Below are positions 9,605 to 15,782 of a stretch of DNA of 19,873 bases, one piece after another; the first letter of the stretch is position 1, and each line of letters starts with the position of its first letter. A model generated the notes under the pieces. It was not told the DNA's origin, ran no database searches, and saw only the letters and a list, made by a program, of their open reading frames with translations. This stretch comes from Chloroflexota bacterium (GTDB lineage: Bacteria > Chloroflexota > Anaerolineae > Anaerolineales > UBA4823), in contig JAUWLJ010000002.1 in assembly GCA_030613705.1 (NCBI GenBank), positions 1-19,873 on the forward strand, in the 5' to 3' direction. The translations under genes and the position numbers were made by a program.

Positions 9605-10228
9605 TCAAGATGTTTCTGATGAGGAGATAATCTTTCCGATTAAAAACACGCAAAACCCGTCGGCCAGGTGAGCTTTGGATTCGATCTGGGTTACGGAATC
9701 ACCAACAAGGATTTCGACCAGGTAAGTGTCCAGCCGGCATAATTCGGGGTGTTCGGGACGGAGATCTGCGAAAGGACAATGCTCGAAAAACATCCTCGGC
9801 GCATCCGCATGCGCCTCCCAGCGAGCCTGGTAACCGAGAGTGTTGAGCTGCTCGGTTGCTTGAACAAGACGTTGGGCTAGGGGGCCGCGCGGGGAAACTT
9901 CGCCTGCTAAATGGCTGGCAACACGCTGCAGATATCTTGCTTCTGCATCTGGTGGGAGATCCTCGAGAGAAGTGGTCAGCAGGGCACTGGAAAGTAAATC
10001 GAAATTGTCCTGTAGAGCCAAAGCCATTAGACTGAATCGCCGGGCTGGACGCCCCCGGCGACCTCTGCGGTCCTGACCAGTGGTGATTACCAACCCTTCC
10101 TCAATCATATGGGAAAGATGGTGGCGTACATTCGCCTGGGTGACTTGCAAGGCGCGGCTGAGTTCAGCTGCTGTTGCGCCAGGTTTATTTCTGATTAAGT
10201 CCAGCAGTCGCTGGCGGGTGGATTTCAC
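9605..10228 (-). CDS. HTH transcriptional regulator with SufR-like C-terminal cysteines
   Basis: A 207-residue DNA-binding regulator. Residues 4-70 form a winged helix-turn-helix of the ArsR/DeoR-like type (TAAELSRALQVTQANVRHHLSHMIEEGLV, then a basic wing RRGRRGRPARRFSL). The C-terminal half has Cys151, Cys164 and Cys193, spaced C-x12-C-x28-C, with Ser178 where a four-Cys C-x12-C-x13-C-x14-C pattern would have its third cysteine. SufR-family repressors ligate a [4Fe-4S] cluster with such cysteines, so cluster sensing is a reasonable inference but not shown. The start is GTG at 10228 with a weak ribosome site; no in-frame ATG is available upstream. The gene is divergent from the iscX-nuo unit, with a palindrome between the two promoters, so it probably controls both itself and that unit. 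Confidence 0.85.
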   Translation of the reverse strand: MKSTRQRLLDLIRNKPGATAAELSRALQVTQANVRHHLSHMIEEGLVITTGQDRRGRRGRPARRFSLMALALQDNFDLLSSALLTTSLEDLPPDAEARYLQRVASHLAGEVSPRGPLAQRLVQATEQLNTLGYQARWEAHADAPRMFFEHCPFADLRPEHPELCRLDTYLVEILVGDSVTQIESKAHLADGFCVFLIGKIISSSETS

Positions 10229-10291
10229 AGTGGCTTGCTCTGGAAAAATTTCTTGGTTAATCTCACTGGTGGCAAATCCTCCATGTGCCCG

Positions 10292-10297
10292 ATTATA
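10292..10297 (-). promoter_or_regulatory. putative -10 element of the regulator gene
   Basis: The minus strand reads TATAAT here, about 64 bases upstream of the GTG start. Its -35 area (about 10315-10320) falls inside the inverted repeat at 10310-10337, which fits autoregulation. Confidence 0.55.
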
Positions 10298-10309
10298 CCT
10301 TTAATTGTT

Positions 10310-10337
10310 ATTAACGCAAATAATAATTAGCGTTAAT
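10310..10337. promoter_or_regulatory. candidate operator: perfect 8-12-8 inverted repeat
   Basis: ATTAACGC (10310-10317) and GCGTTAAT (10330-10337) are exact inverse complements with a 12-base AT-only spacer (28 bases total). It lies 6 bases upstream of the -35 box of the rightward promoter and overlaps the -35 area of the leftward one. Centre-to-centre spacing of the arms is 20 bases, about two helical turns, as expected for a dimeric HTH protein bound on one face. The adjacent regulator is the obvious candidate ligand. Confidence 0.65.
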
Positions 10338-10343
10338 CAAGCT

Positions 10344-10371
10344 TTGACAGGCATAATTTATCCGGTATAAT
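10344..10371 (+). promoter_or_regulatory. strong sigma70-type promoter of the iscX-nuo unit
   Basis: TTGACA (10344-10349) and TATAAT (10366-10371) are both perfect consensus hexamers, 16 bases apart. Transcription should begin near 10377-10380, at or next to the GTG start of the first gene. Confidence 0.8.
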
Positions 10372-10379
10372 TAGCCATT

Positions 10380-10598
10380 GTGAAGTCAGAAGAGAACACC
10401 TTGACCTGGGAAGATTCCTACGCCATAGCCCAGGAATTATTATTGTCACATGCAGATATAAATCTAGAAGACGTTTCATTGATGATGATCTTTCACTGGA
10501 CCTTGGATTTACCTGGTTTTGTGGATGATCCTGAGCTGGCAAATGATGCAATATTGGCAGGAATTTATCAAGAATGGTATGAGGAGGTAGCTTGGTGA
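10380..10598 (+). CDS. IscX-like Fe-S cluster assembly protein
   Basis: A 72-residue acidic protein matching the IscX (YfhJ) pattern: [14 protein letters not shown] near the N-terminus, a central [21 protein letters not shown] segment and a C-terminal W-x-E-E. This parallels the family's WTDS..I.......P..DP....F.DMHQWI..L..F.DDP..SNE.IL..I...W.DE. E. coli IscX binds IscS and iron and tunes Fe-S assembly. Here the family's D-M before H-W is replaced by M-I. The annotated GTG (10380) would be nearly leaderless, because the -10 box ends at 10371. TTG at 10401, with GAAGAG upstream, is an alternative giving a family-typical N-terminus. The stop overlaps the nuoB start (TGATG), implying coupled translation. 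No iscS or iscU is in the window. Confidence 0.8.
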
Positions 10599-11251
10599 TG
10601 ACAGAAGAAGTAAATATCCCTGGGTACGATATCCCTCCCGAAATGGAAGGCCAGGTAACGATCACTGCGCTGGATAAAATTTATAATTGGAGCCGGCGAA
10701 ATTCAATTTGGCCAATGATGTTTGGACTGGCCTGCTGCGGAATCGAAATGATCTGCGCCGCAACAAGTCGCTATGATTTCTCCCGATTTGGGATGGAAGT
10801 GATGCGACCCAGCCCTCGCCAGAGCGATTTGATGATCGTGTCGGGGACGGTGACCAAGAAGATGATCCCGCAGATTGTACGTCTGTACAACCAGATGCCC
10901 GAACCGAAGTATGTTTTGGCGATGGGTGCCTGCGCCTCTGGAGGCGGCCCATTTAAAGAGGGCTACAGTGTTGTAGATGGCGTTGACAAGTTTATCCCAG
11001 TTGATGTTTATGTCCCCGGTTGCCCTCCAACTCCCCAGGCTTTAATCCACGGACTGATTACCCTGCAGAAGAAAATCGATAAGCAATCGATCAAGAATGT
11101 GCGTTGGTACAGCAAAGATCCTGTTGAACCGATCCCAATACCTTTGTTGGGACCCGATCTGATGGATCCCCGCGATTATGCATTGATTAAACAATATGGC
11201 ACCGAGAAGCTGGCTGAGGATCAACAGGTCCCCGCGGCAGAAGAAGCCTAA
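10598..11251 (+). CDS. nuoB: NADH-quinone oxidoreductase subunit B (NuoB)
   Basis: A complex I Q-module subunit that carries terminal [4Fe-4S] cluster N2 and passes electrons to quinone. I choose ATG 10598 (217 residues), which overlaps the iscX stop as TGATG with GAGGAGG 10 bases upstream. GTG 10595 (spacing 7) is nearly as good. Cluster N2 ligands are present: the tandem Cys46-Cys47 ([10 protein letters not shown]), Cys112 (MGACASGGG) and Cys142 (VPGCPPTPQ). The family motif R-P-S-P-R-Q-S-D-L is also present. Residues after about 175 form a Pro- and acid-rich tail longer than in E. coli NuoB. nuoA does not precede it. nuoCD follows after 14 bases. Confidence 0.97.
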
Positions 11252-11265
11252 ATTGGAGTGAAGAA

Positions 11266-13008
11266 ATGAGCGAAGAAGTCCTTGTTGAAGAGAAAACTGA
11301 ATTAGAAGAACGTTTTCCGGAGATCAGCCGGGATGATCGTAAGGGGTATGAAGGATTTATAGTCCCAACCGAGAAGCTAGTTGAGTTTGCCTCCGTTTTG
11401 CGGGATGAATTTGGCTATGACTTCTTGTCCTCAGTAACCGGTGTGGATTATTTGCCGGAGGATCGGATGGAAGTGGTCTATCACGCTTACCAGACAACCG
11501 GAGGGCCTGGGTTATTCTATAAAGTTCAGGTGGATCGCGATGATCCGGTAGTACCATCACTCACTCCAGTCTTTCCAGGAGCAAATTTGCAAGAACGAGA
11601 AGCATGGGATTTGATGGGTATCCGCTTTGAGGATCACCCCAATCTGAAGCGAGTCTTGCTGTGGGAAGGATTCGAAGGACATCCGCTGCGGAAAGATTGG
11701 CGGGAACCGTTTTACGAAGGCGATGGCAAGCCATTTAAGAGCCGCTGGCCAGGTGGGGAAGTGATCCGGGCGGAAGATAGTAATCCCTTCAATAAGAATG
11801 TGGATTATCCAGGAGGTTTTGATCCTGAGCAATGGACACCAGCAAACGAGACAGCCGTATATGCTGGTGTGGGTAGGCTTGATCATGCGGTGAGCGAGAC
11901 TGCCTTGAGCAACGACCAGATCATCGTGAACCTGGGTCCACAGCACCCATCAACACATGGTGTCTTCAGAATGGTGGTTCGCCTGGAAGGAGAGACGGTT
12001 GTCGCTCTCGAACCTGTCATGGGCTATCTGCACCGCAACCATGAGAAGATTGGGGAACGCAACACCTACTTAATGAACATACCGTTCACCGATCGGTTGG
12101 ATTACTTCAACTCGATGAGCAATAACTTTGGGTACGTTTTAGCGGTTGAGAAGCTGATGGGGGTGAAACCACCGGAACGGGCTGAGTACATCCGGGTGAT
12201 GATGGCAGAATTAACCCGCATCGTCAACCATCTGACGGCCATTGGTTTCCTGCTGAATGATCTGGGGGCATTCTTTACCCCATTGCTGTACGCTTTTAAA
12301 GAACGGGAGTTGATCCTGGACATCTTCGAAGCGGTTAGCGGCTCGCGGATGATGTGTAATTATTACCGTTTTGCGGGCGTGGCACGTGATTTGCCAGAAG
12401 GTGTATTTGAGCAGGTAAAGAATCTGGTGCTGCATAGATTATCTGGACAAGTGGACGATCTGGATACTTTCCTGACCGACAACGAGATCGTCCGCGCTCG
12501 GACAATGGGCATTGGTGTACTGACTGCCGAAGAGGCGATTGCCCATTCAGCAGTCGGACCTGTATTGCGAGCATCAGGCGTCCCATATGATGTGCGTCGG
12601 GCTGACCCATATGGAATTTATGACCGTTTTGAGTTCGACGTCGCGGTGCGCTACCATGGCGATATTTACGATCGATACTTGATTCGTCTGGATGAAATTC
12701 GCCAGAGCATTCGCATATTGGAGCAGGTGATCCAGGATATACCTGATGGACCGATCCAGGAAGGAAAACCTCAGTACCAGGTTCGTGTACCCGCCGGAGA
12801 GGCGTATGGTCGAGTCGAGGGCCCCAAAGGCGAGTTGGGTTTCTACGTTGTTTCCAATGGTAAACCAAATCCCTGGCGTTATCACGTGCGGGCGCCATCC
12901 TTCATTAACTTATCTGCCCTGGATGTGATGTGTAAGAATTATAAGATTGCCGATGTAGTCTCTATCTTGGGCTCAATTGACATAGTGCTAGGTGAAACGG
13001 ATCGTTAG
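11266..13008 (+). CDS. nuoC: NADH-quinone oxidoreductase subunit C/D fusion (NuoCD)
   Basis: A 580-residue fusion of two complex I Q-module subunits. Residues about 28-150 are the NuoC (30 kDa) domain, with its signature EREAWDLMGIRFEDHPNLKRVL and RKDW (110-144). A linker (about 150-215) leads to the NuoD (49 kDa) domain, starting NLGPQHPSTHGVFR (222-235) and including GYLHRNHEKIGERNTY (253-268), MAELTRIVNHL and the C-terminal SILGSIDIVLGETDR. The NiFe-binding CxxC pairs of group 4 hydrogenases are absent, so this is a quinone-site subunit, not a hydrogenase. Such C/D fusions occur in several bacterial lineages. A GGAG ribosome site lies about 8 bases before the ATG. It sits 14 bases after nuoB and 51 before nuoI. 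Confidence 0.96.
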   Translation: MSEEVLVEEKTELEERFPEISRDDRKGYEGFIVPTEKLVEFASVLRDEFGYDFLSSVTGVDYLPEDRMEVVYHAYQTTGGPGLFYKVQVDRDDPVVPSLTPVFPGANLQEREAWDLMGIRFEDHPNLKRVLLWEGFEGHPLRKDWREPFYEGDGKPFKSRWPGGEVIRAEDSNPFNKNVDYPGGFDPEQWTPANETAVYAGVGRLDHAVSETALSNDQIIVNLGPQHPSTHGVFRMVVRLEGETVVALEPVMGYLHRNHEKIGERNTYLMNIPFTDRLDYFNSMSNNFGYVLAVEKLMGVKPPERAEYIRVMMAELTRIVNHLTAIGFLLNDLGAFFTPLLYAFKERELILDIFEAVSGSRMMCNYYRFAGVARDLPEGVFEQVKNLVLHRLSGQVDDLDTFLTDNEIVRARTMGIGVLTAEEAIAHSAVGPVLRASGVPYDVRRADPYGIYDRFEFDVAVRYHGDIYDRYLIRLDEIRQSIRILEQVIQDIPDGPIQEGKPQYQVRVPAGEAYGRVEGPKGELGFYVVSNGKPNPWRYHVRAPSFINLSALDVMCKNYKIADVVSILGSIDIVLGETDR

Positions 13009-13059
13009 TCTCCAGGTGATTTCGTACTCCTGACTAGGTATCCACAACGGAGTTTGATT

Positions 13060-13710
13060 ATGGCTGATATGTATGGTAAAGGACTTCTGAAGGGTTTGGG
13101 TGTCACAATTAAACACTTCATGGACACCTATCTGGAAGATATCCGCTGGTTATCGCGCGGAAAACACCGCTATTACACTGCAGAAGGGATTGATAGTCGA
13201 AAGAGCTTTGATACATCTGGCATCTTTACTGTGCAATACCCGGAAGAGAGATTGCCAGTGCCGGAGGAATTTCGCTTTATTCCATTCCTGATTTACGAAG
13301 TAAATGAAGATGGGGAAACACAAGATCGGTGCACTTCGTGCGGTATTTGCGCTAAGGTCTGCCCACCCCAGTGTATCTGGATCGAACGGACCAGTGATCC
13401 AGACACAGGCAGACCGGTTCCCGAACCTGAAGAGTTTTACATCGATATAGACATTTGCATGAACTGCGGCTTGTGTGCTGAATTCTGCCCATTTGATGCG
13501 ATCAAGATGGATCACGATTACGAGATATCGGTATATAATCGCCTCGAGAAAAATATCTTTAATAAGGAGCGGCTCTCACGGCCGGTTTCGTATTACGCAT
13601 CGATTCGACCCACAAATTATGCCCGGGAGGAAGCTGCACGAGCCGAAGCTGAAGCTGCAAAAGCTGCCAAAAAAGCAGCCAGAGAAAAGCGATCAAAGAG
13701 TGGTAAGTAA
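13060..13710 (+). CDS. nuoI: NADH-quinone oxidoreductase subunit I (NuoI), 2x[4Fe-4S] ferredoxin type
   Basis: A complex I connecting-arm subunit with clusters N6a and N6b. I place the start at ATG 13060 (216 residues), with GGAG 7 bases upstream, rather than TTG 13054. Two full ferredoxin motifs are present: C91-x2-C94-x2-C97-x3-C101-P and C133-x2-C136-x2-C139-x3-C143-P. The N-terminus (GLLKGLGVTIKHFM) is the amphipathic membrane-contact helix typical of NuoI. After about residue 185 the protein ends in an Ala/Lys/Glu-rich helical tail (EEAARAEAEAAKAAKKAARE), an unusual extension. No nuoH, J, K, L, M, N or E, F, G follows. The next gene is mrp. Confidence 0.96.
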   Translation: MADMYGKGLLKGLGVTIKHFMDTYLEDIRWLSRGKHRYYTAEGIDSRKSFDTSGIFTVQYPEERLPVPEEFRFIPFLIYEVNEDGETQDRCTSCGICAKVCPPQCIWIERTSDPDTGRPVPEPEEFYIDIDICMNCGLCAEFCPFDAIKMDHDYEISVYNRLEKNIFNKERLSRPVSYYASIRPTNYAREEAARAEAEAAKAAKKAAREKRSKSGK

Positions 13711-13782
13711 TAACAGAGACAGCGAGTCTCAATTATAATAATTTGTGAATTTTCAACGGTAGATTAGATAAGGAAAATTGGA
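13711..13782 (+). other. short spacer with weak hairpin between nuoI and mrp
   Basis: GAGAC (13716-13720) and GTCTC (13726-13730) can form a 5-bp hairpin, followed by AT-rich sequence including TATAAT (13734-13739) but no T-run and no -35 box. It may be an attenuator or nothing. mrp is probably still read from the upstream promoter. Confidence 0.25.
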
Positions 13783-14868
13783 ATGGTAAATGTAAATATT
13801 GTAAGTGAACAAGCAGTCATGGATGCGTTGAGCAAGGTCCAGGAACCCGAGCTGCACAATGACCTGGTCAGCCTGAACATGATTCGCGATGTTAGTATTG
13901 ATGGAGAAGAAGTTGGTTTTACAGTGGTGTTGACAACGCCAGCCTGCCCGCTGCGATCGCAGATCGAGCGTGAGGCGCGTGAAGCTGTTGTCTCAATTCC
14001 AGGTGTAAAAACTGTGGCAATCAAAATGGATGCCAATGTGCCCTCTGATGGCAGGCAGCGCGGCCTCTTGGAATTGCCGATCCGCAATGCAATCGCGGTC
14101 GCCTCCGGGAAGGGTGGTGTGGGTAAGAGCACCTTGGCCGTGAATCTGGCAGTTGTATTAGCCAAATCTGGCGCCCGCGTAGGTCTGCTGGATGCAGACA
14201 TATATGGACCAAATATCCCTACCATGATGGGTGTGGACCACTTACCACCTGCTGGTGAAGATAAATTAAAACCAGCTGAAGCTCATGGCGTGAAATTGAT
14301 GTCGATCGGTTTCATGGTGAAAGCTGATCAACCCTTGATCTGGCGCGGGCCGATGCTTCACTCTGCGATCCGCCAGTTTCTGAGTGATGTTGACTGGGGG
14401 GAGCTGGATTACCTGATTGTCGACCTTCCACCTGGTACGGGAGATGCCGGCTTAAGCCTGGCGCAATCGATGCCATTAAGCGGGGGGGTGATCATAACCT
14501 TACCGCAGCAGGTTTCGCTGGATGATGCCAGACGAGGTCTGGAGATGTTCCGCCAAATGAATGTTCCGATCTTTGGAGTAGTTGAGAATATGAGCTACTT
14601 GGAACTGCCTGATGGAACCCGGATGGATATATTCGGTGAGGGAGGTGGAGAAAGACTGGCTCAAGAAAGTGGAGTTCCATTTATTGGTGCCATCCCTATG
14701 GATCCAGCAGTGCGAGTAAGCGGCGATCAAGGCGTCCCTATCACAGTGAGCGATCCTGATTCCCCAGTTGCCCAGGCATTGAATGCTATCGCCATGGATG
14801 TGGCTGCCAAAGTCAGCGTAGCGGCGATGCAAAATAACGATTTTGTTCCCATCACGATGGTCGGATGA
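13783..14868 (+). CDS. mrp: Mrp/ApbC-type P-loop ATPase, Fe-S cluster carrier, lacking the CxxC pair
   Basis: A 361-residue protein with an N-terminal MIP18/DUF59 domain (about 8-88; conserved TTPACPL with Cys55) and a P-loop NTPase domain from about 100. The deviant Walker A is GKGGVGKST (109-117), followed by [12 protein letters not shown] and DLPPGTGD. Mrp/ApbC proteins bind and transfer Fe-S clusters using a C-x2-C in the ENMSxFxCPxCG segment. Here that place reads [18 protein letters not shown] (268-285), so both cysteines are gone while the flanking ENMS and IFGxGGG are kept. The ATPase should work, but cluster carriage by the usual bridging ligands should not, leaving Cys55 as the only conserved thiol. 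Its position after the nuo genes suits Fe-S maturation. The stop overlaps the next start (ATGA). Confidence 0.93.
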
Positions 14869-15782
14869 TTATGAGCCAGACAAAACATTTGGTCGTTGGC
14901 GTTCGTTTCCAGAAGGTGGGGAAAATTTATCATTTTGATGCCAGGAAGTTCAACGACCTTCGCACCGGGGACTTTGCTGTCGTTGAGACCAGCCGGGGAA
15001 AGCAATTAGGAGAGGTGGTTCAAATATTGGATGAACCCTCCTTACCGCCCCATGGTTCATGGAAGCCGATCAAGCGCAAAGCCACACCACGTGACCTCTT
15101 GCTGCGCCAGATCTGGCAGCGTAAAGCTGTAGAAGCGATGATCAACTGCCGCGCTAAAGCGGCTGAAATGAAGATCGTGGGGGTAAAGATCGTATCAGCG
15201 GAATTCACTTTTGATGGAAAACGGCTCTCCTTCTTATACAGCACTGAGACTGAAGAAAGAGTTGATCTAAAATCCTTGAAAAAGGCGATCCAACGTACCT
15301 ATCAACGCTCAAGAGTTGAAATGCGCCAGATTGGACCGCGCGATGTCGCGAAAATTATTGGCGGGATGGGAGCATGCGGAATGGAATCGCGCTGCTGCTC
15401 GATTTTCTTGACCGAGTTCAGCCCCATCTCGATCAAGATGGCCAAGGAACAAGGTATCTCTTTGACGCCTTCTGAGATCACCGGTATGTGTGGCCGCTTA
15501 CGCTGCTGCCTGATTTATGAGTACCAGCAGTATATAGAGGCACGCAAGGTGCTGCCTAAACGTAATAAACGGGTAATCACCCCTCAGGGAGAAGGGAAGG
15601 TTGTCGACATCTATCCTCTCAAGGACTCCGTGCTCGTTGAAGTAGAGGGGGTGGGAAGAGAGGAATTTGGGCGTCTCGATATTCAGCCATGGGACGAAAT
15701 GGAAGAATTACGAAGAAAATCCGCAGAGCCTTGTGACAAACACGAAAACGGTGAATGTAATTGTGGCAAGGGAGTAACTTGA
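14865..15782 (+). CDS. PSP1 domain protein (RicT/YaaT-like)
   Basis: A 305-residue protein of the PSP1 C-terminal-domain family. B. subtilis RicT (YaaT) is the best-studied member and forms an Fe-S-containing complex with RicA and RicF that affects RNase Y processing and development. Conserved cysteine motifs are present: [12 protein letters not shown] (167-178; Cys171, 177, 178) and GMCGRLRCC (207-215; Cys209, 214, 215). After the domain, a charged tail ends in C290-D-K-H...C298-N-C300, a possible extra metal-binding cluster. The ATG at 14865 overlaps the mrp stop, suggesting coupling. ATG 14871 is a possible alternative. No ricA, ricF or holB neighbour is present. Confidence 0.9.

Follow-up and report, generated by a model that had tools for sequence, protein, structure and literature searches.

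This report concerns a stretch of DNA of 19,873 nucleotides (nt) from a Chloroflexota bacterium, here called the window (contig G000:C124 of a fragmentary genome, 58% complete), and within it the genes at positions 9605 to 14868. There, a regulator gene is divergent from iscX-nuoB-nuoCD-nuoI, which are followed by mrp. Fe-S (iron-sulphur) control of the iscX-nuo genes by this regulator, a paralog of SufR, is well supported by comparison with relatives, and both DNA binding and cluster binding are predicted for it. The comparison shows a divergent gene pair and a dedicated operator set at a near-fixed distance from both promoters; operator and regulator occur together, three SufR cysteines are kept, and other sites in a genome scan are in no clear excess. 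The comparison suggests that many anaerobic Chloroflexota tune this complex I to Fe-S supply through a second copy of SufR. The elements in question are as follows (positions are those of the window).

9605 to 10228, minus strand: regulator, SufR paralog of the nuo-linked type, with an N-terminal winged helix and a C-terminal domain with C151-X12-C164-X28-C193
10292 to 10297, minus strand: -10 element (TATAAT) of the regulator's own promoter, read from the sequence, 26 nt from the operator centre
10310 to 10337, no strand: predicted palindromic operator of 28 base pairs (bp), conserved, ATTAACGCAAATAATAATTAGCGTTAAT, from palindrome search, matrix and relatives
10344 to 10371, plus strand: sigma-70 promoter match for iscX-nuoB-nuoCD-nuoI (TTGACA, 16 nt, TATAAT), 12 of 12 consensus positions
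10380 to 10598, plus strand: iscX, GTG start (PF04384, TIGR03412)
10598 to 11251, plus strand: nuoB, ATG start, with a Shine-Dalgarno-like GAGGAGG at 10581-10587
11266 to 13008, plus strand: nuoCD, a fusion of PF00329 and PF00346
13060 to 13710, plus strand: nuoI, ATG start, with two Fer4 stretches (4Fe-4S motifs) and a charged C-terminal tail
13783 to 14868, plus strand: mrp, with PF01883 (DUF59-type domain) and a PF10609 P-loop nucleoside triphosphatase, without the CxxC cluster-ligand motif

Open reading frames, Pfam and NCBIfam confirm all genes of the stretch where an earlier reading of the sequence alone (the original prediction) had put them, namely a SufR-like regulator divergent from iscX-nuoB-nuoCD-nuoI and then mrp. 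The palindrome it described in the shared promoter region is also present, at 10310-10337, and is conserved across relatives. Conservation of the neighbourhood, on which the prediction had staked itself, was found as well: the divergence of regulator and nuo genes and the operator are kept across several families of the order.

In the comparison set (G labels denote genomes, L labels loci and f labels families), 56 of 61 genomes contain regulator homologs and 42 contain IscX. The regulator matches total 104; the 98 examined are all but six short, weak matches with E above 4e-5. Forty-nine of the 98 have iscX or nuoB within 3 kb in divergent orientation, 46 lie beside suf genes (five of these assigned by sufT alone) and three are unlinked; a regulator of the nuo-linked kind is thus divergent from iscX or nuoB in 49 of the 61 genomes. 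Mapping of the window proteins on fetched loci gives a shared order in the window's family and in other families of the order: the regulator and then, on the opposite strand, IscX-NuoB-NuoCD-NuoI-Mrp-RicT. Eighty NuoB loci of named relatives were also compared, many of them filed as Anaerolineales or Anaerolineae and others as Chloroflexota only. Seventy-four have sufficient upstream DNA, and the regulator lies at most 600 bp upstream in 61 of these, 38 of the 61 having IscX. Downstream of NuoB, in the 56 sufficiently long named loci, NuoCD is found in 55, NuoI in 56 and Mrp in 53.

The window regulator has an ArsR/HTH_5 winged helix (Pfam E 1.5e-9), and its best NCBIfam match, almost over the full length, is TIGR02702 (SufR_cyano) with 33.7 bits. 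With the same model five suf-linked copies score 88-108 bits, four nuo-linked copies 31-36 bits, and one from a distant family 76. The AlphaFold model of the regulator is confident (predicted local distance difference test, 90.8); no SufR structure was recognisable by sequence in the PDB, nor among the 50 fold matches listed. Among the copies examined, a suf-linked copy is found alongside the nuo-linked one in 40 of 49 genomes; in the window's own genome one regulator copy was found. The divergent neighbours of a suf-linked copy are typically sufC and sufB, and sufT comes next. All 46 suf-linked copies form one clade in the tree (support 100/99), and 44 of the 49 nuo-linked copies fall in one group (98/87) together with one unlinked copy, the remaining five, from distant families, lying nearer the suf copies. 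Because this tree has long branches and a midpoint root, it does not prove the direction and time of the duplication. Identity with SufR itself was considered and rejected, since a separate suf-linked clade exists; the regulator gene adjoins iscX-nuo and not suf, and so is not a SufR by linkage in the strict sense. By sequence comparison it is a paralog of SufR. The "SufR-like" of the original prediction thus holds for the kinship and the three cysteines, but SufR itself is a different, suf-linked gene in the relatives.

The cysteines of the window regulator, C151-X12-C164-X28-C193, give the expected ligand pattern of CX12C with a third cysteine about 27 residues further on. Among the nuo-linked copies C151 is kept in 48 of 49, C164 in 48 of 49 and C193 in 46 of 49, with all three in 46 of 49; in an added named set the counts are 42/42, 42/42 and 41/42. 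Each of the 46 suf-linked copies has four cysteines and shows the spacing CX12CX27C. At the alignment column of the third of these four, all 49 nuo-linked copies are without a cysteine, though L106 has one a column further on. In the 46 nuo-linked copies with all three cysteines, CX12C is followed by X30 (35 copies), X28 (five) or X27 (six). The available part of a study of Mycobacterium tuberculosis SufR (Rv1460) gives C203, C216 and C244 (CX12CX27C) as needed and the extra C242 as dispensable (PMC6034842). The nuo-linked copies retain counterparts of the three cysteines needed in Rv1460, without a counterpart of the other one.

The window palindrome has arms ATTAACGCAAAT and ATTAGCGTTAAT, of 12 nt each, 92% complementary and 4 nt apart. 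For this region by itself, 300 dinucleotide shuffles make it no more than moderately improbable (p = 0.013), and palindrome-only shuffles for each genome gave p < 0.05 in 27 of 45; it is conservation across relatives that places the palindrome beyond chance, and the matrix test is the stronger one. The 28-bp consensus of the operator is ATTTACGCAAATATATATTTGCGTAAAT. A matrix scan placed the operator above the 99% null in 41 of 45 short regulator-nuo intergenic regions, with a matrix trained on the same sites that it scores; a test with family f1 and a test with the named loci are the held-out versions. Trained on the window's family f1 alone, the matrix found the operator outside that family in 10 of 14 genomes (six families), with p 0.002 in each case, the floor of 500 Markov shuffles, and scored over 13 in none of 39 suf regions. 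In the named loci the operator is present in 51 of 61 with the regulator near and in 1 of 11 in which none was found (Fisher p 3e-6); when records shared with the 45 regions are removed, the comparison is 32 of 40 with 1 of 11 (p 3e-5). Counted over all regulator-nuo regions, with four added to the 45 (G060 with the operator; G052, G053 and G040 without it), the operator is found in 42 of 49.

The operator overlies the regulator's own -35 region and stops just short of the nuo -35, which in the window starts 20 nt past the operator centre. In 34 of 41 sites, 17-20 nt separate the centre from the nuo -35 that follows it; of the 40 sites with a regulator -10 of at least 5/6 matches, 34 have this element 25-28 nt from the centre. 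Strong operator hits in 1.03 Mb of fetched DNA fall at regulator promoters in 39 of 40 cases, and the 40th is upstream of iscX in a locus where the regulator sits 1.4 kb off (G060/L097). A wide regulon was considered and rejected: a scan of 36 genomes for the pattern, allowing two mismatches at most, found 28 places, 12 at nuo and 16 elsewhere, against 14 for a reversed control, the pattern being insensitive in that it misses the window's own site (5 mismatches). At 0 or 1 mismatch, six of seven places are at nuo, the exception being G011:C221. One weak operator match, scoring 15.6, was seen among ten stretches that carry other complex I genes and come from six genomes. This match is at L332:1970-1997 (G022), where it precedes that genome's other complex I cluster, one that contains NuoC-G and holds the NuoF gene.

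In distant families (G059, G046, G038, G050, G053, G040, G052, L232 and L244) the main operator is replaced by a TGTCAA box and then TTGACA. The regions share TTTGTCAAA or a like box plus TTGACA, at variable spacing (24 to 61 nt). These elements may represent operator turnover, or may just be divergent -35 boxes. One ancestral operator across all families was considered and, in the light of these boxes, is doubtful.

As to which complex I is concerned, NuoH is present in at least two copies in 35 of 41 genomes. The gene content was examined in one genome, the single-contig G003. There, a nuoA-N-like cluster (L323; B, E, F, H and I by family, D by BLAST, the rest by the order of open reading frames) lies apart from nuoBCDI, and so does a second cluster (L324) with nuoA, H, J and K and four L/M/N-type open reading frames, three of which were Pfam-scanned. 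NuoEFG linked to the nuoBCDI quinone module (Q-module) was not found in G003. Because both clusters lie apart, and because the window NuoB and NuoD are 55% and 41% identical to their L323 counterparts, nuoBCDI would complete a second set without NuoEFG, and most likely is the Fe-S arm of a second complex I of that kind. The complex I subunits originally read as nuoB, nuoCD and nuoI are thus present, with their assignment corrected to this probable second complex. Two complex I gene sets are also described for Chloroflexus aurantiacus in the available part of PMC3150298, one of them loosely arranged, with nuoM duplicated and no nuoG.

The window IscX scores above both curated cut-offs, with 47.3 bits for PF04384 (cut-off 25) and 45.9 bits for TIGR03412 (cut-off 40.4). 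Its gene is directly 5′ of nuoB in 40 of 42 order-level loci, and in a phylum sample of 301 genomes IscX was found in 24, all of the window's class, with nuoB next downstream in 24 of 24, the window included. IscX is absent from 23 of the 61 named loci with the regulator, though the regulator-nuoB pair persists and the regulator is then directly divergent from nuoB; in Anaerolinea thermolimosa, Levilinea saccharolytica and Leptolinea sp. HRD-7, for example, the regulator is by nuo and IscX was not seen there. Conversely, IscX-nuoB without a regulator match occurs in eight sampled loci elsewhere in the class and in four of the same order, within flanks of 1.5 kb, such that a diverged or farther regulator could be missed. 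Linkage that follows IscX was therefore rejected; the regulator is linked to nuo, since the pair stays where IscX is missing. The IscX family assignment of the original prediction is confirmed, but as a factor dedicated to the unit IscX proves dispensable to the linkage.

The iscX stop codon overlaps the nuoB start (TGATG), and the iscX GTG start lies 8 nt past the -10 element of its promoter match. With so short a distance iscX is possibly leaderless; an in-frame iscX start 4-14 nt past the best -10-like hexamer is found in 20 of 37 relatives. In one genome of the same genus (L064, of G004, and L204) iscX is apparently split, its first part by the regulator and its last part by nuoB elsewhere, through rearrangement or misassembly.

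The mrp product is a protein of the Mrp family, as had been proposed. However, the CxxC in the ENM...FG segment, which three solved relatives shown have, is absent in the window and in all 38 relatives, one of the 38 being cut off before the segment. The window Mrp thus lacks the CxxC ligands of an ApbC/Nbp35/Ind1-type carrier, and the part of the proposal that made it a Fe-S carrier is doubtful because the motif is missing in window and relatives alike. A TTPACP cysteine motif in the first Mrp domain is kept in 33 of 38 relatives.

In the proposed mechanism, SufR would have been duplicated, and one copy would have exchanged suf for a new target, the hydrophilic Fe-S arm (NuoB, NuoCD and NuoI) of a second complex I, most likely one without the NADH module. 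A homodimer of the regulator would hold a Fe-S cluster via C151, C164 and C193 and would bind the palindrome at 10310-10337. It would repress its own gene, as the operator covers its -35 region, and would set transcription of iscX-nuoB-nuoCD-nuoI by cluster status, with IscX, where present, as a co-regulated Fe-S helper. Since the operator is upstream of, and not over, the near-consensus nuo core promoter, the holo-protein could either activate nuo, the Fe-S arm being made when clusters are plentiful, or repress from upstream. The adjustment of Q-module synthesis to cluster status, as first proposed, gains from the conserved pair, operator and cysteines and is retained as a prediction, with amended assignments for the regulator, the complex I set and Mrp.

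The 46 suf-linked SufR copies of the same genomes share with the nuo-linked type a homologous regulator, mostly divergent from sufC/sufB, and a palindrome between divergent promoters. Their site differs, and is TGTCAATATTTAAGATAATTATCTTAAATATTGACA in 39 of 39 regions scored, by a matrix trained on the same 39 regions (two longer regions were left out). The centre of the suf palindrome is 12 or 15 nt from the suf -35 (27 and 12 of 39), so that the palindrome contains or abuts it. Because the palindrome reaches into the suf -35, this geometry fits plain repression, and the shift of the site in nuo makes activation possible. As a tentative proposal, the holo regulator may repress itself and activate only the Fe-S arm of the complex I without NADH module, from the site upstream of the nuo -35. 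In that case the arm would be built only when clusters can be filled, and Fe-S supply would gate complex I assembly via a dedicated sensor. Some suf promoters (L121, L122, L124, L131 and L145) apparently have two tandem operator-like and promoter-like stretches.

Other explanations of the same data should be considered. The regulator could control iscX-nuo and yet sense thiol oxidation, a metal or a ligand, via the same cysteines or none. The missing third suf-type cysteine in 49 of 49 nuo-linked copies, the longer spacing before the last cysteine (X30 in 35 of the 46 with all three cysteines, X27 in every one of the 46 suf-linked copies) and the weak match to the SufR model are consistent with such a sensor. 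However, the cysteines that remain are spaced like the ones required in Rv1460, the linked genes encode Fe-S subunits and a member of a Fe-S assembly family, and the closest paralog belongs to a suf locus, so that sensing of this other kind is considered unlikely. It is quite unlikely that the regulator represses only itself, with the operator as an autoregulation site and the nuo operon as a passive neighbour under a strong constitutive promoter. Such an arrangement would agree with an operator over the regulator -35 and with a nuo operon that has a complete core TTGACA/TATAAT of its own, but the operator is still found upstream of iscX where the regulator is 1.4 kb (G060/L097) or 4.2 kb (L279) away, and the spacing to the nuo -35 varies no more than that to the regulator -10. 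Autoregulation alone also leaves the nuo linkage across several families unexplained. The region of G052, with a gap of 2.3 kb and in which the operator was not found, speaks neither way.

Regulators of the Rex, Fur or Crp type often control nuo genes, and the palindrome could be the site of such a global regulator, with the adjoining regulator gene incidental. The site, however, tracks the presence of the regulator (51 of 61 loci against 1 of 11), its matches away from nuo in the 36 genomes are at the level of the control, and the ten stretches with other complex I genes gave the one weak hit. A global regulator at this site is thus very improbable.

Fe-S control of iscX-nuo by the SufR paralog has several points against it, which should be noted here. 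The window regulator does not reach the SufR_cyano cut-off of 178.8 bits, a cut-off that the five suf-linked copies likewise stay under. The regulator of L116 is without all three cysteines, and those of L088 and L097 are without the last in the aligned column. The ligands of Synechocystis SufR, given as C164, C171 and C206 in the available part of a 2026 review, misfit the CX12C spacing (PMC13421787). The operator is missing in 7 of 49 regions (families f3, f4, f5, f11 and f15) and is below the threshold of 15 in 10 of 61 named loci, e.g., Leptolinea sp. HRD-7 (6.8) and Levilinea saccharolytica (13.6), and thus appears changed or lost in part of the group. In G022 the other complex I cluster is a possible second target of the regulator. 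Finally, the genomes are related, so that the conservation counts are not independent events.

Further features lie downstream in the window or beside the genes of its relatives.

13710 to 13739, plus strand: possible separate mrp promoter (ATAACA, 18 nt, TATAAT), 10 of 12, a consensus match only
14865 to 15782, plus strand: ricT/PSP1-family gene (NF041131, 201.1 bits), overlapping mrp and often its neighbour in relatives
L208, L213, L217, L227, L239 and L248 (e.g., L213:11060-11413): Cys-rich open reading frame between nuoI and mrp

From the consensus match, mrp may have its own promoter. The small Cys-rich open reading frame, of about 100-120 amino acids (like GSCASCQADSYKAMHGCTQCA...RRFRGSD), is found in six of nine relatives inspected and is not present in the window; it is possibly an unknown Fe-S or zinc protein of the operon. 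PIG-L and M20 genes often adjoin the loci with the shared gene order.

Two copies of SufR thus occur in many families of one Chloroflexota order, one linked to suf and the other placed at a complex I operon, where it has an operator of its own. If the proposal is true, Fe-S status would act directly on the transcription of complex I genes, and the operator, register and ligand residues of this link are predicted. A SufR-nuo pair was put forward as not known from earlier descriptions, and none was found in the literature searched, which lies mostly outside subscription journals, so that this absence is no proof. Within the same literature no paper was found on Anaerolineae together with SufR, and the sole match for SufR with nuoB concerns, in its available part, a mycobacterial kinase. 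The available part of the 2026 review mentions ftrC, which is co-transcribed with suf in one cyanobacterium (PMC13421787).

The SufR proteins of cyanobacteria (Synechocystis sll0088), Mycobacterium (Rv1460) and Streptomyces, as described in the available parts of PMC8593673, PMC13421787 and PMC6034842, share with the window regulator a winged helix and C-terminal ligand cysteines, a palindrome in the target promoter and an often divergent arrangement. In contrast to these, the window regulator is linked to nuo and not to suf, and the nuo-linked site, ATTTACGCAAATATATATTTGCGTAAAT, is not the CAAC-N6-GTTG of a SufR operator in the strict sense. The nuo-linked operator also stands upstream of the target -35, and the nuo-linked type has three and not four conserved cysteines and scores well under the cut-off of the SufR model.

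Mitochondrial NUBPL/Ind1, a complex I assembly factor, is likewise a P-loop protein of the Mrp family tied to complex I (PF10609; from partial source text). The window Mrp differs in that it is without CxxC and is therefore unable to bind a bridging cluster as such proteins usually do. Escherichia coli IscX (YfhJ) shares family membership with the window IscX, which aligns to 2bzt and 1uj8 over the whole domain. However, a search for the two ISC partners IscU and HscA found each above cut-off in none of 41 genomes, and the gene sits 5′ of nuoB. If the proposal is true, IscX would be a factor linked to complex I in bacteria without recognisable IscU or HscA.

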